Shown: one piece after another, positions 49,682 through 60,017 of the stretch
How the letters are laid out: each line of letters begins with the position of its first letter
Position numbering within the stretch: position 1 is the first letter of the stretch
Origin: an uncultured Desulfobacteraceae bacterium
GTDB lineage: Bacteria > Desulfobacterota > Desulfobacteria > Desulfobacterales > Desulfatirhabdiaceae
Direction: 5' to 3'
Assembly (NCBI GenBank): GCA_903953895.1
Contig: CAJBLH010000279.1
Location: forward strand, 1-64,000
DNA length: 64,000 nt
Position numbers and translations under genes: made by a program
Notes under the pieces: model-generated
Told to the model about the DNA's origin: nothing
The model's database searches: none
Seen by the model: the letters and a program-made list of their open reading frames with translations, nothing else

Positions 49682-52600
49682 ATGAGCAACAAGACTCCGG
49701 TAGGATCTGTTTTGGTTGTAGGCGGCGGTATCACTGGCATGCAGTCGGCTTTGGATCTGGCTGATGCAGGATACTACGTTTACCTGGTTGAAGAAAGCCC
49801 GGCCATTGGCGGCGCCATGGCCCAGTTGGATAAGACGTTTCCCACCAACGACTGTTCCATGTGAATTATCTCCCCAAAACTGGTCGAGGTCGGCCGGCAC
49901 ATGAACATCGAACTTCTCACCCTCTCCAAAGTTACTTCCATTTCCGGCGATTCCGGCGATTTTACCGTGATCATCAAGCAATCCCCCCGTTTTGTGGATA
50001 TGGAAAAATGTATCGCCTGCGGTACCTGCGCGGAGAAATGTCCTGCAAAAACATCAGACCCTTTCAATGAAGGGCTGGCCAAACGAAAAGCCATTTACGT
50101 ACCGTATGCTCAGGCGGTTCCACTGAAGTACGCCATCGATAAAAATCGGTGTATTTATTTCCAGAAAGGCAAATGCCGGGCCTGTGAAAAATTCTGTCCG
50201 ACAAACGCCATCAAGTTTGATGAAACCGAAAAGGACATTACCCTCAATGTGGGCTCGGTCATTCTGACCGCAGGTTTTACTCCCTTCAATCCGGACAGAT
50301 TCGATAATTACCAGCATGCTAAATTCCCCAATGTGATAACCAGCATGGAATTCGAGCGAATCCTGTCTGCCGGCGGGCCGTTTGCGGGTCATGTTCACCG
50401 CCTCTCCGATGGAAAAGAACCCAAAAAAATCGCTTGGCTCCAGTGCGTGGGATCACGCGACCTGAATCGCTGCGATAATGAATACTGCTCGTCGGTCTGC
50501 TGCATGTATGCCATCAAGGAATCGGTGATTGCCAAAGAACATCTTGGGCCGGACTTTGCGCCTGCCATCTTTTTCATGGACATGCGAACCCATGGCAAAG
50601 ACTTTGAAAAGTATTATGAACGCGCCAAGGCGCAGGGAGTTCGTTTTGTCCGATCCAGGGTTCATACCATTACGGAGATCGATGAAACCGGAACGTTAAA
50701 TCTGGTGTATGCAACCGATACGGGAGAGCGCGTGTCCGAAGATTTCGACATGGTGGTTCTGTCTGTCGGCATGGAACCGGCGGCATCCGCCATCGAGGCT
50801 GCCAAAACCCTGGGCGTGGAGCTGAATTCCTACCAATTCGTCAAAACATCCAATATTTCCCCCGTCGCCACATCACGAAAAGGCATTTATGTGGCTGGCG
50901 CCCTTCAGGGCCCCAAGGATATCCCGCAGTCGGTTGTCGAGGCCAGTGCTGCAGCCTGTTCGGCAGGGATCAGCCTGTCAGCCTCCAGAGGAACGCTGGT
51001 CAAAGACAAACAATTTCCTGCTGAACGGTCTGTCCAGGACGAAAAACCGCGGATCGGCGTATTTGTTTGCAACTGCGGAATCAATATTGGCGGTATTGCC
51101 GATGTGCCGGCTGTTGCCGCCTATGCCCGGGGGCTGGGGGATGTGGTCTATACGGAAGAGCCTTTGTTTGCCTGTAGCCAGGATGCACAAGACAAAATGG
51201 TCGAGGTCATTCGAGAACATCGCCTGAATCGCATCGTGGTTGCCGCTTGTACTCCAAGAACACACGAACCGCTGTTTCAGGAAACCATTCGGAATGCTGG
51301 ACTGAACGCCTATCTGTTTGAAATGGCCAACATCCGCAATCAATGTACCTGGGTGCATTCGGGGGATAAGGAAAAGGCAACGGAAAAGGCCAAAGATCTG
51401 GTGCGCATGGCGATCCGTCGGGCGATGCTCCTCGAGCCGATTCCCTCTCTGTCTGTTAACGTCAACAAGTCAGCACTCGTTATCGGTGGAGGCGTTGCCG
51501 GCATGACCGCAGCACTCAGCCTGGCCGACCAGGGTTTCAGTGCTACCATTGTCGAGCGATCCGGAAATCTCGGCGGTTCTGCCCGGGATGTACACGCCAC
51601 GTGGTCCGGTGAAGATGTACAGCAGTTTCTCAAAGATCTGATCGACCGGATCAATCAGCATCCGCTGATTACAGTCCTCACATGGGCGCAAGTTGTCGAT
51701 GCATCCGGGTTTGTTGGAAATTTTGAAACACGGGTCCAGGCCGGAGAAAAAACACATATCCTTCAACATGGTATCGCCATCATGGCAACCGGTGGTCAGG
51801 CAGCGGTAACTGATGAATATCTATTCGGTAAACACCCTGCCGTCACCCGCTGGCATGATTTGGAGAACAATCCGGAAAAACTCACTGATGCCGGGAGCGT
51901 TGTCTTCATTCAGTGCGTAGGTTCCCGGGATGACAAGAGACCTTATTGTTCACGGGTCTGCTGTACGACATCCGTATCCCAGGCCATTGCCATCAAGGAA
52001 AAACAACCGGATACCGATGTGTTCATCCTCTATCGTGATATCCGCACCTTTGGAGAGAGGGAGGTTCTTTACAAAAAGGCGAGGGAAAAAGGGGTTATTT
52101 TCATCCGCTACAGCCTGGAGAGTAAACCCGTTGTAACAGAAACTCCTGATGGACTTCATGTTCGGGTTTTCGATCCAATTCTCCAGAAAGAGCTGTTGAT
52201 CCACGCGGATCTGGTAAATCTGGCGACTGCTATCGAACCTTCTCCCAATGCGGATATCGCCGCTTTTTACAAGGTTCCTGTCAACGCGGAAAACTTTTTT
52301 ATGGAAGCCCATGCCAAGCTGCGTCCGGTGGATTTTGCATCAGACGGTCTATTTGTGTGTGGTCTGGCCCATTATCCCAAATCACTGGACGAAAGCATTG
52401 CTCAGGCCATGGCGGCTGCAGGGCGGGCCGCAACGGTTCTGGCCAGAGAAACCATCCAGATATCCCCGCTGGTCTCCCAAGTCAACCGGGATATGTGTAT
52501 CGGCTGCGGCCTGTGTACCGAAGTCTGTCCCTTCGGCGCCATCATTCAGGAAGACGTTGATGGCAAGGGATTCAAAGCCAAGAACATTTCTGCATCCTGC

Positions 52601-52702
52601 AAAGGCTGTGGGCTCTGTGCATCATCATGTCCCAAGAAGGCCATCGACATGCTGCATTTCCGGGATGACCAGATCGTCGCTGCGGTCTGTGCGGCAGTCT
52701 GA
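49682..52702 (+). CDS. hdrA: HdrA-like FAD/iron-sulfur protein with selenocysteine (copy 1)
   Basis: 1006 residues when the in-frame UGA at 49862-49864 is read as selenocysteine (Sec61), in [21 protein letters not shown], where HdrA has a conserved Cys. Order: FAD motif [14 protein letters not shown] (about 9-22), Sec61, two ferredoxin-type clusters ([12 protein letters not shown] from Cys110, then [12 protein letters not shown]), FAD/NAD domain with LQCVGSRD, then a second HdrA-like half with CNCGINIGG and [12 protein letters not shown], and two C-terminal 4Fe-4S motifs ([24 protein letters not shown]). HdrA carries the bifurcating flavin. A hairpin at 49880-49897 follows the UGA. Start chosen by CAGGAAG upstream. 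First gene of the hdr-metVF cluster. Confidence 0.92.
49880..49897 (+). promoter_or_regulatory. Putative SECIS hairpin, hdrA copy 1
   Basis: CTGGTC and GGCCGG (6 bp including two G-U pairs) close a GAGGTC loop, starting 15 nt after the UGA at 49862. The loop has a G in its first position, as required in bacterial SECIS elements. It is identical in hdrA copy 2. Confidence 0.65.
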
Positions 52703-52707
52703 TAATC

Positions 52708-52778
52708 AATTACGAATTACGCATTAGGAATTAAAAAATAATCCACAACTCGTAATCCGTAATTTATAATTCGTAATT
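52708..52778. repeat. AT-rich inverted repeat between hdrA copy 1 and mvhD copy 1
   Basis: AATTACGAATTA at 52708-52719 is matched by TAATTCGTAATT at 52767-52778 in the 93-nt gap. It could form a weak mRNA hairpin or be a short dispersed repeat; no U-tract is present, so it is not called a terminator. Confidence 0.45.
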
Positions 52779-52795
52779 CATAAAAAGGTGTGAAT

Positions 52796-53545
52796 ATGGA
52801 ACAAGTCGAACCTAAAATCGTTGCATTTCTCTGTAACTGGTGCGCTTATGCCGGAGCTGATCTGGCAGGGGTGTCGCGGATTCAGCACCCATCGAACATG
52901 AGAACCGTCCGGGTCATGTGCTCGGGCCGCGTAGACCCGATTTTTATCGTTCAAGCCCTCAAAAGCGGGTGTGATGGGGTGCTGGTGGCTGGCTGACATT
53001 TCGGCGACTGTCATTACCTGGAAGGTAATATTCAAGCTGAAAAAAAGATTCTCATGACACAAAAACTGCTGAAACTCTCCGGCATCGGTGAGAATCGCCT
53101 CCATCTGGCGTGGCTATCTTCCGCCGAAGCCCAGCGGTTTGTCGATATAACCACGGGAGTTATCGATCAGGTCAAAGCCCAAGGACAATTCGATGCCGAG
53201 CAGTTCTCTCTGGAGTTGGCGGCTGCGGAAGAAACATTGAAGGCTGAAGCCCTGCGCTGGATGGTCGGAAAAGAAGTGAAGCTTCTGGCCAGAGGTGATG
53301 TGTACGGCCGTAAATGGGAAAAGGAAAATTTCGAAAAAATTCTTGATGATGTTCTGGAAAGAGAATATCACAAGCAGTTGATCCGCCAAGCCATCATCGC
53401 TGATTTTACATCTGTCAGGGCCATCAGCCGGCGAATCGGACTTGGATTGAAACGGATTTCCTATCTTCTGGCGGATATGGAAAAAACGAATATGGTCGAA
53501 TTCAAGGGCCACACGGAGTGTGTACCGGTTTTCGGCGCATTATAA
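52796..53545 (+). CDS. mvhD: MvhD/FlpD-like electron-transfer subunit with selenocysteine and a C-terminal extension (copy 1)
   Basis: 249 residues when the UGA at 52994-52996 is read as Sec67. The ATG at 52796 has AAGGTG 5 nt upstream. Residues 1-150 are an MvhD (FlpD) domain binding a 2Fe-2S cluster: FLCNWCAYAGADLAG, VMCSGRVDP and GVLVAG-U-HFGDCHYLEGN, where other members have Cys. The remaining 100 residues add a helical, helix-turn-helix-like segment (about 190-235, SVRAISRRIGLGLKRISYLL). MvhD passes electrons to HdrA. A hairpin at 53013-53029 follows the UGA. Its Cys/Sec arrangement is the reverse of copy 2. Confidence 0.9.
53013..53029 (+). promoter_or_regulatory. Putative SECIS hairpin, mvhD copy 1
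   Basis: ATTACC and GGTAAT form a perfect 6-bp stem with loop TGGAA, starting 16 nt after the UGA at 52994. A G occupies the second loop position. Confidence 0.65.
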
Positions 53546-53596
53546 AACTATCATTACGTATAACATAGTGTAGAGACTTACGCTAGAGGAGTTATC

Positions 53597-56500
53597 ATGG
53601 GATCGGTTCATGGCAAGACAAGTGGTTCAGTGATGGTTGTGGGTGCTGGAATTGCCGGCATGCAGGCTTCACTGGATCTGGCCAATTCAGATTATTATGT
53701 GCATCTCGTCGATAAGCTGCCGACGGTCGGGGGCATGATGGCCCGGCTGGACAAGACGTTTCCAACCAATGACTGCGCCATGTGAGTGATCTCACCCAAA
53801 CTGGTCGAGGTCGGCCGGCATCTGAACGTCAATATCATCACCAACAGCGAAATTAAAACCGTTGATGGGGAACCCGGAAATTTTACTGTCACCCTGGTCA
53901 ATCATCCGCGTTACATCGACCCGGTCAAGTGTACGGGCTGCGGGGAATGCGCCCGGCATTGCCCTGTAACCGCCGTCAACCGCTACAACAAGGGCTTGGA
54001 TGACCGCAGGGCTGCCTTTATCGAATATCCCCAGGCCGTTCCACTGGCCTTCGGGATCGATACCGATACCTGCATCGGCTGCGGCCTCTGCGAAAACATG
54101 TGTGTGGCCAAGGCCATTCAGTATGACGACACCGAGCGCGAATCTACGATTACCGTCGGTTCGATCATTCTGGCCTCCGGCAGCCAGGGATATGATCCAT
54201 CCAAGCTCGATTTTCTGGGCTACGGGAAGTCCCCCAATGTGGTTACCAGCGAGGAATTTGAGCGAATTCTGAGCGCATCCGGTCCGTATCGTGGGCACCT
54301 CTGCCGGCCTCTGGACCGGGAAGAACCCAAGAAAATCGCCTGGCTTCAGTGCGTCGGATCACGAGACACGAATAAATGCGGAAATGGATACTGTTCATCG
54401 GTCTGCTGCATGTACGCGGTCAAGGAAGCCATGATCGCCAAAGAACATGCCCACTGTGATCTGGATTGCGCCATTTTCAACATGGACATCCGCACGTTCG
54501 GCAAAGATTATGAAAAATATTATTTAAGAGCCAAAGACAAGGACGGTGTCCGTTTTATCAAATCGCGGGTGCATACGGTTACCGAAATTCCGGAAACCGG
54601 TGATTTAACCGTTCGATTCGTCAATGAAGCCGGTGAAATCCTGGAAGAGACTTTCAGCATGGTCGTGCTTTCCGTCGGCCTTCAGGTGCCGGAGACATCA
54701 AAACTCCTGGCTCAGCAACTCGGAATCGAACTCGATCAGTACAGTTTTGTGCAAACCAATCCGTTCACCCCGGTTTCAACCTCACGGGAAGGCGTTTATA
54801 CCTGCGGTGTGTTTCAAGGACCCAAAGACATTCCCGGATCCATCACCGAGGCAAGTGCGGCGGCATGTGCGGCAGGATCGGATCTCAGTGCGGCCCGCGG
54901 TACCGATACCAAGGTCATCGTAATGCCGGATCAACAGGATGTGGCGGCGGAAACACCCAGGATCGGGGTTTTTGTCTGCAATTGCGGCATCAATATCGGT
55001 GGTGTCGTGAATGTTCCGGAAGTTGCCGATTACGCGGCAACCCTGCCGTACGTTGCATATACAGATCAGAATCTTTTCACCTGCTCTCAGGACACCCAGG
55101 ACAAGATCAAGGAAAAGATCATCGAGCACAAATTGAACCGGGTGGTCGTAGCCTCCTGCAGTCCGAAGACCCACGAGCAGATGTTCATGGAAACCCTGGA
55201 AGCCTGCGGTCTGAACCGTTATCTCTTTGAAATGGCCAATATCCGCAATCAAAATTCCTGGATTCATTCCAAGACACCGGCTATTGCCACGCAGAAAGCC
55301 AAAGATCTGGTACGGATGGCCGTGGCCAGGTCCGCCACTCTGAAGCAGCTTAAGGAAAAAGTCATTTCCGTCAATAAACAGGCCCTTGTCATCGGTGGCG
55401 GAGTGGCCGGCATGAACGCGGCGCTGGGGCTGGGAAAACAGGGTTTTCATGTTGCGCTGATCGAAAAAAACAATACACTGGGCGGCTTTTCCCGTATGCT
55501 GCATCATACCATCGAGGGCGGGGATATTCAGGTATATCTGAACGATTTGATTCTTGAAGTTACCGGCCATGAAAACATCGAGGTGATTACCGCCGCCAAT
55601 GTGACAGACTTCAGTGGTTACAAGGGAAATTTCACGACGACGGTCGTATTCGGGCCGGAAAATGAAAAACGCACCATCAAGCACGGCATCATCATCGTCG
55701 CGACAGGCGCCAGGGAATATACGCCGACGGAATACTGCTTCAATCAAGATCCGCGGGTGATGACACAGGTTCAGTTAGGGGATGTACTGGAAGAAAAAGG
55801 CGCAGCAGAACTTGCATCGGTGGTCATGATCCAGTGCGTGGGCTCCAGAAATGCGGAAAATGTCAACTGCTCCCGGATTTGTTGCCAGAATGCGGTCAAA
55901 AATGCGCTGATCATCAAGAAGCAGAATCCGGAAACCAATGTTTACGTGTTGTACCGGGATATTCGAACTTACGGCTTGATGGAAGATTTTTACAAGGAAG
56001 CCAGAAACCTTGGGGTCATTTTTATTCGGTTCGATTCGGACAATCCGCCCCAGGTCGTTCCAGGCGCCGACGGTATGCAGGTTTTCGTAAAAGATCATAT
56101 TCTGCAGCGGAATCTGGAGATTGAGGCCGATCTGGTAGTTCTAAGTGCAGGCATGGTGGCCGAGGATACCACTGATTTATGCGGCATCATGAAGTTCAAC
56201 CGAAATCCTGAAGGCTATTTCATCGAAGCTCATGTCAAGCTGCGTCCGGTGGACATGCCCGGAGACGGCATTTTTCTCTGCGGAACGGCCCATGGTCCCA
56301 AACTGATTACGGAAACCATCTCACAGGCCCAGGCGGCAGCTTCCCGGGCTACGACATTTTTGTCCAAATCGGAGATCAAACTCTCGGCCATAACCGCCCA
56401 GGTGGACACGGAGCACTGCGTGAAATGTCTGACCTGCGTCAGGTCCTGTCCCTTCAGTGTGCCGGTCTTCAATACCGAAAAACAGGTCATTGAAATTGAT

Positions 56501-56626
56501 GAAGCCATCTGCCACGGTTGCGGCATCTGCGCCGGCGTTTGTCCAAGGGAGACCATTCAGCTCAATTATTACGAAAATGATCAAATACTGTGTAAAATAG
56601 AAGCCTTGTTGGCGGGGGGGATGTAA
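53597..56626 (+). CDS. hdrA: HdrA-like FAD/iron-sulfur protein with selenocysteine (copy 2)
   Basis: 1009 residues with the UGA at 53783-53785 read as Sec63 ([21 protein letters not shown]). Layout mirrors copy 1: FAD motif MVVGAGIAGMQASL (about 13-26), Sec63, clusters CTGCGECARHCP and [31 protein letters not shown], second HdrA-like half ([23 protein letters not shown]) and C-terminal CVKCLTCVRSCP and CHGCGICAGVCP. The second N-terminal cluster is a plain CxxCxxC, unlike the KGKCRAC form of copy 1, so the two are paralogues, not a recent copy. GAGGAG upstream of the ATG. It ends overlapping the next ATG by one base. Confidence 0.92.
53801..53818 (+). promoter_or_regulatory. Putative SECIS hairpin, hdrA copy 2
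   Basis: Same stem and loop (CTGGTC, GAGGTC, GGCCGG) as in copy 1, starting 15 nt after the UGA at 53783. Confidence 0.65.
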
Positions 56627-57048
56627 TGGCCGAATTTGAACCAACGATTATCACGTTTTGCTGCGATTACTGAGGGTATTCAGCCGCGGACCTGGCAGGT
56701 TCGATGCGACTCGATTATCCGGCAAACATAAAAATCATTCGGGTTCCCTGTACCGGAAAAGTCGATTTGATGTACCTTCTGGCTGCGATTCAGAAAGGAG
56801 CGGACGGCGTATATGTAGTGGGCTGTCTGGAAGGTTCCTGTCACTACAAACAGGGGAATTTCAAGGCCAGACAGCGGGTGGAACAGGCCCGCAAATTACT
56901 GGAGGAAGTCGGACTGGAAGGGGATCGGGTGCGCATGTATAATCTTTCCTCCGGTGAAGGACCGACGTTTGCGGCGTATGCAAAAGAGATGACGGAACAT
57001 ATCAAGGCACTTGGGCCCAATCCGTTAAAAAAATGGGCAAAAGTCTAA
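56626..57048 (+). CDS. mvhD: MvhD/FlpD-like electron-transfer subunit with selenocysteine (copy 2)
   Basis: 140 residues with the UGA at 56671-56673 read as Sec16 in ITFCCDY-U-GYSAADLAGS. Single MvhD domain of normal length: Sec16 replaces the first-loop Cys that copy 1 keeps (FLCNWCAYAGADLAG), while VVGCLEGSCHYKQGN keeps the Cys that copy 1 replaces. Start codon overlaps the hdrA stop (taATG), so translation is coupled. Electron-transfer subunit feeding HdrA. The hairpin at 56688-56702 supports recoding. Confidence 0.9.
56688..56702 (+). promoter_or_regulatory. Putative SECIS hairpin, mvhD copy 2
   Basis: GGACC and GGTTC form a 5-bp stem (one G-U) with loop TGGCA, starting 14 nt after the UGA at 56671; loop G in second position as in mvhD copy 1. 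Confidence 0.55.
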
Positions 57049-57064
57049 TCTAAGGGAGTGGAAA

Positions 57065-58384
57065 ATGGCAGAGGAAGCAATCAAATTAGGCGGTAAAAAG
57101 AAAAGTATGTTTATCGACAAAGTCAAGGAACTCCTCCCCGAAGGCGGAAATCTGAACCTTTGTCTCACTTGCGGAGCCTGTTCATCCGGGTGCCCTGCAA
57201 CCGGACTCGCCGGCATGGACCCCCGAAAGTTTCTGCGCATGGCGGCGCTGGGAATGGATGAAGAAATCATTAAATCCGACTGGCCCTGGATGTGTACGAT
57301 GTGTCAGCGGTGCATCTACGTTTGTCCCATGAAAATCGATATCCCGCAGCTCATTTACAATGCCCGGGGGCTCAGACCCAGGGATCAGCGTCCCAAAGGG
57401 ATTCTGGCCTCCTGCGACATGGCGCTTCGAAACGATAGTACCAGCGCCATGGGAACTTCCCCGGATGATTTTATCTTTGTGGTACAGGATGTGCTTGAAG
57501 AATTCCGGGAAGCCCAGCCGGAATTCGCCGAGATGGATGCGCCCATCGACAAGCAGGGGGCGGAGTTCTTTTTAAACCAGAATTCCAGAGAGCCCGTGAC
57601 CGAGCCCAATGAAATGGTTCCACTGTGGAAAATTCTGCATCTGGCCGGCGCCGACTGGACATACGGAAGCCATGGCTGGGCAGGCGAGAATTACTGCCTG
57701 TTTCTGGCAGACAACAATTCCTGGGAGAAGATTACCCGAACCACGGTGAATCAGGCCAATAAGCTCGGGTGTAAGATATTTCTCAACACGGAGTGAGGGC
57801 ATGTAACATTCTCAGTCCGGGCCGGACTGAAAAAATTCAACCTCGAACACAATTTTGAAGTAAAAAATATCTATGAGTATTATGCCAAGTGGATTCGCGA
57901 AGGCAAGCTGAAGGTCAATTCCGACTGGAACAAGGATCTGAAAATCAAGTTCACGGTACAGGATCCCTGCCAGATCGTTCGAAAGAGTTATGGCGACCCC
58001 ATCGCAGAAGATTTGCGGTTTGTGGTGAAATCCGTGGTGGGTGAAGAAAATTTCATCGATATGCAGCCCAATCGATCCAATAATTATTGCTGCGGTGGTG
58101 GTGGTGGATTCCTGCAGTCCGGATTCAAAGATGAGCGCCTGCTGTATGGAAAGCTTAAAGATGATCAAATCAAGGCGACTGGTGCAGACTATTGCATCGC
58201 CGGATGCCATAACTGCCATGCCCAGATTCACGAATTGAGCGAGCATTACGGTGGTCATTATCCGGTTGTCCACCTCTGGACGCTCATTTGTCTTTCTTTG
58301 GGAATACTCGGTCCGAACGAACGGGAATACTTGGGAGATGATCTGAAGGAAGTGAATGTATTCCACCCAGAGTCGGCCGAATAA
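57065..58384 (+). CDS. Heterodisulfide reductase iron-sulfur protein (HdrC-HdrB-like fusion) with selenocysteine
   Basis: 439 residues with the UGA at 57794-57796 read as Sec244. N-terminal HdrC-like part: two 4Fe-4S motifs LCLTCGACSSGCP (about 32-44) and CTMCQRCIYVCP. C-terminal HdrB-like CCG domain: NTE-U-GH near 244, where the family has the leading Cys, then NNYCCGGGGGFLQSG and GCHNCHAQ. Only one complete CCG domain is apparent, while HdrB/HdrD normally have two; the central part (about 120-240) has few Cys. The stretch beyond the UGA would otherwise be an orphan of 195 codons. It presumably passes HdrA electrons to the substrate side. Sits between mvhD copy 2 and metV. Confidence 0.9.
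57812..57830 (+). promoter_or_regulatory. Putative SECIS hairpin, HdrCB-like gene
   Basis: TCAGTCC and GGACTGA form a perfect 7-bp stem with loop GGGCC, starting 15 nt after the UGA at 57794. It is the strongest of the five hairpins. Confidence 0.7.
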
Positions 58385-58399
58385 TATAAAGGAGGGCAT

Positions 58400-59077
58400 A
58401 TGATCGTTGCCAAACGAAAACCTTTTGATGAGATCAAACAGCTTCTCAAAGGTTATAAGAAAGTCCTGAATGTGGGATGTGGAACCTGTGTTGCAGTCTG
58501 TCTGGCCGGTGGTGAAAAAGAAGTTTCCGTGTTGAACGCAGAGCTGGATATGGCCAGAAAAATCGAGGACAACCCGATCGAGATTTCCGGAATCACCATC
58601 GAACGCCAGTGCGACCGGGAATATCTGGAAGCATTGGATGCAAAAGTCGGTGAGTATGAAGCCCTGCTGTCCATGGCCTGCGGTGCGGGCATCCAGTTTC
58701 TGGCGGAACGCTATCCGACGATTCCGGTGCTGCCGGCGGTCGATACGACGTTTATCGGTGTCAATCAGGCCGTGGGATGGTATGAGGAAAGGTGTAGATC
58801 TTGCAGCAGTTGCGTTCTGGGTCAAACCGGCGGCATCTGCCCGGTGACGATGTGCGCAAAGGGTCTCTACAACGGCCCATGTGGCGGCACCAACAAAGGG
58901 AACTGCGAAATAGACGCCAGCCAGCCATGTGCTTGGTATATGATTTATGAACGGTTAAAGGGCCAGAACCGCCTGGAATGTATTCTGGAAATTACCCCGG
59001 CCAACGACTGGCAGAATCAGACACCACGGACCGTTATCCAGCCCGGATACAGCAAACCGGAAACTGCCGGAAAATAA
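58400..59077 (+). CDS. metV: MetV, zinc-binding partner of methylene-THF reductase
   Basis: 225 residues, AAGGAGGGC upstream. The N-terminal part has VLNVGCGTCVAVCLAGG and a Rossmann-like LLSMACGAGIQFLAE; the C-terminus is the methylenetetrahydrofolate reductase C-terminal Cys domain: RCRSCSSCVLGQTGGICP, CAKGLYNGPCGG, and GNCEIDASQPCAWYMIYERL. MetV is the non-catalytic subunit that binds MetF in acetogens and sulfate reducers. It directly follows the Hdr genes and precedes metF by 13 nt. Confidence 0.9.
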   Translation: MIVAKRKPFDEIKQLLKGYKKVLNVGCGTCVAVCLAGGEKEVSVLNAELDMARKIEDNPIEISGITIERQCDREYLEALDAKVGEYEALLSMACGAGIQFLAERYPTIPVLPAVDTTFIGVNQAVGWYEERCRSCSSCVLGQTGGICPVTMCAKGLYNGPCGGTNKGNCEIDASQPCAWYMIYERLKGQNRLECILEITPANDWQNQTPRTVIQPGYSKPETAGK

Positions 59078-59090
59078 TGAGGAAGCCGAT

Positions 59091-60017
59091 ATGAAAGCAG
59101 GAAGCAATTTAGAGAAAATCTTAAAGGCCGGTCATTTTGCTTTTACGGGTGAACTGGGGCCGCCCAGGGGAACCGGCGTTGAAGAAGTTAAACACAAAGC
59201 CTCTTTTTTAAAGGGAATGGTGGATTCCGTTAATATTACGGACAATCAAACCGCCGTGGTTCGTATGGCTAGTTGGGCCGCCTCCCTGATCGTGATCCAG
59301 GAAGGTCTGGAGCCCAATTACCAGATGGTGTGCCGGGACAGAAATCGTCTGGCCATGCAAAGCGATATTCTGGGGGCTTACACCCTCGGCATTCGAAATA
59401 TGCTGTGCCTGTCCGGCGATCATCAGAAATTCGGGGATCATCCTCAGGCAAAAGGCGTTTTTGACATCGATTCCATGCAGCTTATCGCCATGGTGAAAAA
59501 AATGCGCGATGAGGGCAAGTTTCAGGGCGGCACGGATGTCGAGCATCCGCCGAAAATCTTTATCGGAGCGGCTGCGAATCCTTTTGCCGATCCGTTCGAG
59601 TGGCGGGTACACCGCCTGGCCAAGAAAGTTGCGGCCGGCGTGGATTTTATCCAGACCCAGTGTATCTACAACATGGAAAAATTCCGCAACTTTATGAAGA
59701 TGGCCAATGACATGGGGCTTACGGAAAAAGTGTATATCCTTGCCGGTGTAACACCTATGAAAAGCATCGGTATGGCCCGATATATGAAGGCCAAGGTGCC
59801 GGGCATGGATGTGCCGGACGAGATCATCAAGCGGCTTCAGGGTGTGGATAAGACCAAGGTTGCCGATGAAGGCATCAAAATGGCTTGTGAGCAGATTGAG
59901 GAATTCAAGGAAATGAAAGGGGTCGCTGGCGTTCACCTGATGGCCATTGAATGGGAGCATAAGGTTCCGGAAATTGCTGAAAGGGCAAAGGTTCTACCCC
60001 GGCCGGTCGTTGATTGA
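59091..60017 (+). CDS. metF: 5,10-methylenetetrahydrofolate reductase MetF
   Basis: 308 residues. MetF-type TIM barrel with the FAD/folate positions FTGELGPPRGTGVEEV, DSVNITDNQTAVVRM, LCLSGDHQKFGDH and FIGAAANPFADPF, then FIQTQCIYNMEKF. It reduces methylene-THF to methyl-THF, a step of the methyl branch of the Wood-Ljungdahl pathway. In Moorella MetFV forms a complex with HdrABC and MvhD; the same genes occur together here. Last gene of the cluster, followed by a terminator. Confidence 0.95.
   Translation: MKAGSNLEKILKAGHFAFTGELGPPRGTGVEEVKHKASFLKGMVDSVNITDNQTAVVRMASWAASLIVIQEGLEPNYQMVCRDRNRLAMQSDILGAYTLGIRNMLCLSGDHQKFGDHPQAKGVFDIDSMQLIAMVKKMRDEGKFQGGTDVEHPPKIFIGAAANPFADPFEWRVHRLAKKVAAGVDFIQTQCIYNMEKFRNFMKMANDMGLTEKVYILAGVTPMKSIGMARYMKAKVPGMDVPDEIIKRLQGVDKTKVADEGIKMACEQIEEFKEMKGVAGVHLMAIEWEHKVPEIAERAKVLPRPVVD

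Follow-up and report, generated by a model that had tools for sequence, protein, structure and literature searches.

Clustered genes for selenocysteine (Sec) containing HdrA, MvhD/FrhD and Fe-S oxidoreductases have already been described in Deltaproteobacteria (PMC1794560, PMC2702500, PMC13188914), and the comparison made here draws on passages of the open-licence texts of these and the other papers cited. In Syntrophobacter fumaroxidans, Sec-containing hdrA-frhD-frhG-frhA together with a Sec-containing glpC was reported in 2006 (PMC1794560), and a 2026 review counts this as an operon of four selenoprotein genes (PMC13188914). Desulfobacterium autotrophicum HRM2, which reduces sulfate and has the Wood-Ljungdahl pathway, encodes at least 31 selenoproteins, including Sec forms of HdrA1/A2, HdrL1/L3, HdrD4 and MvhD1/2/3/5, along with the full Sec machinery (PMC2702500). 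Sec-containing HdrA and MvhD were also reported for D. multivorans (PMC5109826), and Sec-containing HdrA and VhuD for methanogens (PMC13188914, PMC11097638). In Moorella thermoacetica, MetFV-HdrABC-MvhD has been purified as a complex (PMC5861303, PMC5736913), and Hdr genes next to metF are described for syntrophic sulfate reducers in a text that, in the passages used here, leaves Sec unmentioned (PMC10553843). Here we describe a run of five predicted selenoprotein genes of the hdrA, mvhD and hdrD types, followed by metV and metF, in an uncultured Desulfobacteraceae bacterium (assembly GCA_903953895.1). The window, i.e. the whole stretch analysed, comprises 64,000 nt of contig CAJBLH010000279.1; the genome is referred to as G000 and its other contigs by C-numbers.

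The genes lie on the forward strand in the order hdrA1-mvhD1-hdrA2-mvhD2-hdrD-metV-metF, and each of the first five contains one in-frame TGA, as a first-pass annotation had claimed with correctly quoted flanking residues. Reading through TGA led to single frames of 1006, 249, 1009, 140 and 439 amino acids, respectively, all open past the codon. The predicted Sec is residue 61 of HdrA1 (gene at 49682-52702; TGA at 49862-49864, in the motif NDCSMU), residue 67 of MvhD1 (52796-53545; TGA at 52994-52996; FlpD domain at residues 8-128), residue 63 of HdrA2 (53597-56626; TGA at 53783-53785, in NDCAMU), residue 16 of MvhD2, also a FlpD protein (56626-57048; TGA at 56671-56673), and residue 244 of the HdrD-like protein, which consists of an HdrC-type 4Fe-4S part and one CCG domain (57065-58384; TGA at 57794-57796, in TEUGH). 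The subsequent metV (58400-59077; PF12225, C-terminal type of methylene-tetrahydrofolate (THF) reductase) has no in-frame UGA, and metF (59091-60017; PF02219, MTHFR) has none ahead of its own stop. As in the operon order glpC-hdrA-frhD-frhG-frhA of S. fumaroxidans and Desulfotalea psychrophila, Sec forms of HdrA, of FrhD/MvhD and of an Fe-S oxidoreductase with a UGH motif are clustered (PMC1794560, PMC13188914); however, FrhG and FrhA belong to those operons as described, whereas two HdrA and two MvhD are found here, no hydrogenase gene lies within the five-Sec run, and MetV and MetF follow. With hdrA, mvhD, metV and metF in one run, the locus is of the MetFV-HdrABC-MvhD type, and HdrA, MvhD, MetV and MetF are common to it and to Moorella. 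The Moorella complex has a named HdrB and HdrC, in contrast to the single TmcB-like HdrD, the doubled HdrA and MvhD and the five predicted Sec subunits of the present locus (PMC5861303, PMC5736913). We consider it very likely that this operon-like run, which would be co-transcribed, encodes a cytoplasmic flavin-based electron-transfer complex together with methylene-THF reductase, with one Sec in each of five subunits.

An HdrA2 scan of genome contigs, with TGA read as a residue, gave 81 loci (the best 80 of 138 relatives plus the window). The contiguous order hdrA[U]-mvhD[67U]-hdrA[U]-mvhD[16U]-hdrD[U] was present in 12 of them, including the window, and metV came directly next in 12 of 12; many of the remaining loci are truncated at a contig end or carry hdrD at another place. 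A second type of Sec operon, with metF on both sides, was found in 24 of the 81 loci (14 and 10 in its two commonest orders). When the codons at the UGA sites were surveyed in homologues from 118 loci, in which some genomes occur twice, TGA was present in 55/81 hdrA1-type, 34/61 mvhD1-type, 39/56 hdrA2-type, 69/95 mvhD2-type and 42/56 hdrD sequences. Altogether, 346 of 349 homologous rows had TGA, TGC or TGT at the site, which bears out the earlier statement that each UGA stands where the family has a conserved Cys; the three exceptions are distant homologues with TGG and GGG (one mvhD2-type sequence each) and GTT (one hdrD). Within the order, for which 192 genomes of at least 85% completeness were drawn from a larger group and Cys copies were not counted, at least 137 of the 192 matched MvhD2 at 1e-50 or better. 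Among the matches listed in this survey, 49 rows reached at least 74% identity, with TGA in 48 and its absence in one (G071). In the family (8 genomes), MvhD2 with TGA was detected at 86% identity or more in 7, and MvhD2-type copies without TGA in four (G001, G002, G003 and G006), while in G000, G004, G005 and G007 no MvhD2-type copy without TGA was found at 1e-45.

A nearby hairpin had been noted for all five genes, and all five are indeed present 3' of the UGA: 49880-49897 for hdrA1 (loop AGGU, 22 nt from the UGA), 53013-53029 for mvhD1 (GGA, 23 nt), 53801-53818 for hdrA2 (AGGU, 22 nt), 56688-56702 for mvhD2 (GGC, 20 nt) and 57812-57830 for hdrD (GGC, 23 nt), all on the forward strand. They lie within the limits of the bacterial model for a Sec insertion sequence (SECIS) element, which has a loop of 3-9 nt, a G in the first two loop positions and a distance of 16-37 nt from the UGA (PMC13188914). 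Rfam, applied at its gathering thresholds, gave two tRNAs (both tRNA-Ser) and nothing else. Spacing and loop are nearly constant among Sec genes and scattered among Cys genes. Among non-identical Sec sequences, the commonest loop of the best hairpin was AGGU for hdrA1-type (49/53) and hdrA2 (36/37), GGC for mvhD2 (67/69) and GGA for mvhD1 (19/30), and hdrD was divided between GGC (21/42) and GGU (14/42). The fraction of paired stem cells in Sec orthologues compared to Cys homologues in the same columns was 0.99 (n=53) versus 0.63 (n=21) for hdrA1, 0.97 (30) versus 0.56 (22) for mvhD1, 0.99 (37) versus 0.61 (14) for hdrA2, 1.00 (69) versus 0.60 (21) for mvhD2 and 0.95 (42) versus 0.45 (10) for hdrD, and slid controls within the Sec sets gave pairing of 0.00-0.76. 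Stem cells with changes on both sides numbered 14 in hdrD, 6 in hdrA1, 2 in mvhD1 and none in hdrA2 and mvhD2, the latter owing to a stem that hardly varies among 69 sequences.

The folding energies are less favourable to this interpretation. With only the uninterrupted upper stem scored and a threshold of -7.5 kcal/mol, the window hairpins of hdrA1 (-9.1), hdrA2 (-9.1) and hdrD (-11.0) were at or below the threshold, as were 49/53, 36/37 and 40/42 of the respective Sec sequences, and they differed from protein-preserving shuffles (p = 0.012, 0.033 and 0.015, respectively). Cys homologues at -7.5 or lower were rare (3/21 hdrA1, 0/22 mvhD1, 1/14 hdrA2, 0/21 mvhD2 and 0/10 hdrD). Several results weigh against the candidate elements: mvhD1 (-4.5) and mvhD2 (-6.9) fell short of the threshold, with 60-nt folds of -13.9 and -17.1, as did nearly all their Sec orthologues (only 0/30 and 2/69 at or below it); both were unremarkable compared to protein-preserving shuffles (p = 0.33 and 0.14); the whole-region folding energies of all five were not unusual by the same comparison (p = 0.07-0.39); and by upper-stem energy the five ranked 4th, 7th, 8th, 12th and 20th among the 191 window TGAs that are open on both sides. 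Hairpin energy as a stand-alone test in the window was dropped, as it did not single out the five, and so was whole-region folding energy, which did not discriminate them from the shuffles. The hairpins are present but energetically not outstanding, and the case for these putative elements is one of conserved position and loop across orthologues, not of energy.

The Sec machinery, for which a check had been suggested, is encoded in the genome: selC (tRNA-Sec, 75.5 bits) on C182, SelB (382 bits) on C121, SelA (597 bits) on C133 and two selD, located on C153 and C184 and both scoring above the cut-off. Each selD has one in-frame TGA itself, and the two SelD proteins differ, being about 47% identical. 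SelB would read each of the five UGAs as Sec, aided by the hairpin just 3' of it. Further Hdr-type genes with TGA were found in the same genome, for HdrA (TGA at the corresponding site) on C61, C209, C75 and C182, for MvhD on C61, C209 and C75 and for HdrD on C61 and C63. C61 also carries the CODH/ACS beta subunit (PF03598) and an operon of the second Sec type (L146), with the order metF, a long Sec-containing HdrA that has an insert, MvhD(16U), metV and metF, followed by HdrD(Sec). Taken together, the locus is a well-supported conserved, operon-like run of predicted selenoproteins, as far as sequence comparison can indicate.

Each Sec would take the place of a Cys in a redox motif, namely CxxU in HdrA, position 16 or 67 in MvhD and UGH in HdrD. 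Similar motifs are given in the review mentioned above, which lists CxxU for HdrA, CxxU with two Sec for MvhD and UGH for an Fe-S oxidoreductase-like protein (PMC13188914). In three PDB alignments, residue 63 of HdrA2 corresponds to Cys, Cys and X (9sfi_A), and in five alignments of MvhD2 residues 16 and 67 are both Cys in four chains and both X in 9sfi_K. The X in 9sfi is presumably Sec, from a methanogen source; there a single chain has X at the two MvhD positions, whereas here each MvhD has a predicted Sec at one of them only. Of 148 different MvhD sequences, a set centred on this cluster, Sec was predicted at 16 only in 69 MvhD2-type sequences and one MvhD1-type sequence, at 67 only in 33 MvhD1-type sequences, at neither position in 45, and at both in none (0/148). 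One Sec position per MvhD partner was not upheld as a fixed rule: at locus L066, where hdrA-mvhD-hdrA-mvhD are all Sec and hdrD(Sec) follows about 3 kb further, Sec is at 67 in the two MvhDs alike. In subunits of the MvhD type, a single [2Fe-2S] cluster lies close to the bifurcating FAD (PMC12350162). The HdrD motif U244-G-H246 resembles, when compared by eye, Cys581-x-His583 of EtfD, which ligates linear [3Fe-4S] and noncubane [4Fe-4S] clusters (PMC13083937). The structure of MvhD2 predicted from one sequence had a mean pLDDT of 49 and was not used.

It had been proposed that the run makes Wood-Ljungdahl electron flow depend on selenium. Alternatively, selenium may be optional and replaced through Cys isoenzymes under selenium scarcity, as in Methanococcus maripaludis (PMC11097638), which we regard as unlikely here but worth serious attention, as four assemblies with the Sec operon (L023, L017, L020 and L033) also carry a sister operon (L053, L058, L071 and L052, respectively). 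The latter is similar in content, starts with hdrD and has Cys at all sites that could be inspected (for L071, the stretch examined includes neither hdrD nor the hdrA1 site). In G003 (L058/L163), the intact Cys operon is located directly upstream of selD. C184 of the window genome (L145) keeps both flanks, with 78% (left) and 90% (selD) DNA identity to L058, but the 14.0 kb between them (L058, 3499-17483) correspond to only 4.8 kb (L145, 9292-14118), in which HdrA pieces occur in an order unlike that of the intact gene, and MetV is reduced to residues 141-205 and MetF to residues 1-120 and 245-307. This remnant lies directly upstream of the Sec-containing selD. In G007 (L169), which belongs to the same genus, the left flank (up to 9834) is followed by the selD flank from 9923 onwards, and no Cys-operon protein was found in the stretch, i.e. 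the site is empty; in G004 the selD flank was the sole match, which is hence uninformative. Loss is the simpler reading of this history because a remnant is present. An intact Cys counterpart, forming a Methanococcus-like isoenzyme pair, exists in the assemblies of four relatives and not in the window genome, in which, moreover, no MvhD2 copy lacking TGA was found at 1e-45.

A FastTree phylogeny of 126 HdrA (92 Sec, 23 Cys and 11 unlabelled that were left uncounted) required at least four changes between Sec and Cys, to which the unlabelled L162 would add one; the HdrA2 of L162, a Cys form, sits among Sec HdrA2. The view that the Cys operon is simply a duplicated Sec operon was not upheld, as the HdrA2 of the Cys operon falls on the HdrA1 side of the tree; because this HdrA2 does not pair with Sec HdrA2, we speak of a sister operon and not of a copy. 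A rule by which an operon is all Sec or all Cys was also given up, being contradicted by the mixed loci L162, L164 and L168 (HdrA2 and MvhD2 Cys, HdrD Sec) and L150 (HdrA Sec, MvhD Cys). L162 stems from a single-contig genome of 8.0 Mb (G071), in which Sec-clade HdrA2 and MvhD2 carry Cys and HdrD keeps Sec; a segment near residues 100-180 is missing from its HdrA2, and in the examined sequence upstream neither HdrA1 nor MvhD1 was found. A third kind of MetVF locus is present on C302 of the window genome (L183, 5496-13098), where an MvhD without Sec, 4Fe-4S genes and large genes that appear glutamate-synthase-like by eye precede metV and metF, whose products (52% for MetV, 39-41% for MetF) are free of Sec. 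This locus would also fit an optional use of selenium, and because Sec-free metVF remains there, losing the Cys operon is no proof of selenium dependence. With the Cys sister operon decayed, it is plausible that the methyl branch of the Wood-Ljungdahl pathway would depend on selenium, but a Sec-free MetV-MetF with other partners persists.

Another possibility is that the five proteins are real selenoproteins of a general Hdr/MvhD electron-transfer complex, directed for example to DsrC or another disulfide, with metVF as a mere genomic neighbour. One point in its favour is the family affiliation of HdrD, given below with the other matches. HdrA1 and HdrA2 are 51% identical to each other and MvhD1 and MvhD2 38% over 130 residues; Pfam matched HdrA domains (FAD/pyridine nucleotide oxidoreductase and 4Fe-4S) in both HdrA, FlpD (PF02662, cut-off 22.3 bits) in both MvhD with 160.3 and 165.4 bits, one CCG match and 4Fe-4S domains in HdrD, and also MetV and MetF. 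A C-terminal extension of MvhD1, about 115 residues past the FlpD domain, has no Pfam match. The NCBIfam models, by comparison, count against the assignment to a MetFV-HdrABC-MvhD type complex, as HdrA1 and HdrA2 scored 982 and 966 bits against a cut-off of 1100 (NF040770), the MvhDs 121 and 175 against 215 (VhuD), HdrD only 30 against 345 (TIGR03288) and 59 against 160 (TIGR03290) with the HdrB/HdrC models, and MetV gave no match. Nearest to HdrD were TmcB (172 v 735 bits), HmcF (170 v 750) and DsrK (118 v 400), all under the cut-off and named for sulfate respiration, so that the label hdrCB of the first-pass annotation could not be kept for this protein with one recognised CCG domain, followed by metV and metF. 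A general function is further suggested by two Sec loci with hdrA-mvhD-hdrA (L066 and L093) in which no metV or metF was found in the stretch examined, and by four Cys stretches (L173, L175, L176 and L179, among 20 stretches examined) with hdrA, two mvhD and hdrD but no metV/metF. On the other hand, metV directly follows all twelve contiguous five-Sec runs and the second Sec operon type is flanked by metF, and we consider a mere neighbourhood rather improbable. According to the reading we prefer, the five consecutive Sec subunits would join MetV-MetF in one cytoplasmic complex, with an electron path leading through them. Finally, that the UGAs are premature stops, arising from gene decay or from TGC/TGT misread in sequencing, would agree with table 11 frames that all end at UGA and with the decay of the sister operon on C184, but it is exceedingly improbable and was rejected, since site codons other than TGA are TGC/TGT in all but 3 rows, the frames 3' of the UGAs remain open and conserved in relatives, there is hardly any variation in the hairpin columns, the genome encodes the Sec machinery, and many separately assembled genomes carry TGA at the same codon in orthologues, which excludes sequencing error. 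The two outcomes by which the first-pass annotation would have been refuted, a genome lacking the Sec machinery and UGA sites that are errors for TGC/TGT, were thus not borne out.

Sec forms of all three families and a four-selenoprotein Hdr operon are already published, as the annotation had stated in part for sulfate reducers and methanogens (PMC2702500, PMC5109826, PMC13188914, PMC11097638), and the present run extends an arrangement that was known before. Its novelty is therefore one of degree: five adjacent selenoprotein genes, which had been called a remarkable concentration, are an unusually long run, but clustered Sec Hdr genes were described before. The text on HRM2, figures aside, contains in the passages used no description of a run of five Sec genes preceding metVF (PMC2702500), and none was found for a five-Sec hdr-mvhD run with metVF among the titles listed in searches of open-licence full texts or in the passages used, figures and supplements aside. 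Likewise, neither MvhD paralogues with a single Sec at either 16 or 67 nor, within one genus, an all-Cys sister operon next to selD in intact, remnant and absent states was found described in the open-licence literature covered. More tentatively, and stopping short of calling it probable, we propose a selenium-locked methylene-THF reductase, in which five Sec subunits would form one complex, and the MvhD paralogues would split two Sec positions that 9sfi_K appears to combine, in a genus whose selenium-free sister operon beside selD ranges, depending on the species, from intact through decaying to absent.

As the five genes are split in two under table 11, such a complex is easily missed. Provided that all five proteins are produced and function together in one complex, selenium supply could be decisive for the carbon and energy metabolism of this Desulfobacterales-type lineage. 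A genus in which the Cys operon occurs intact, decayed and missing from its site is a natural experiment on whether dependence on selenium is eventually fixed and at what point.

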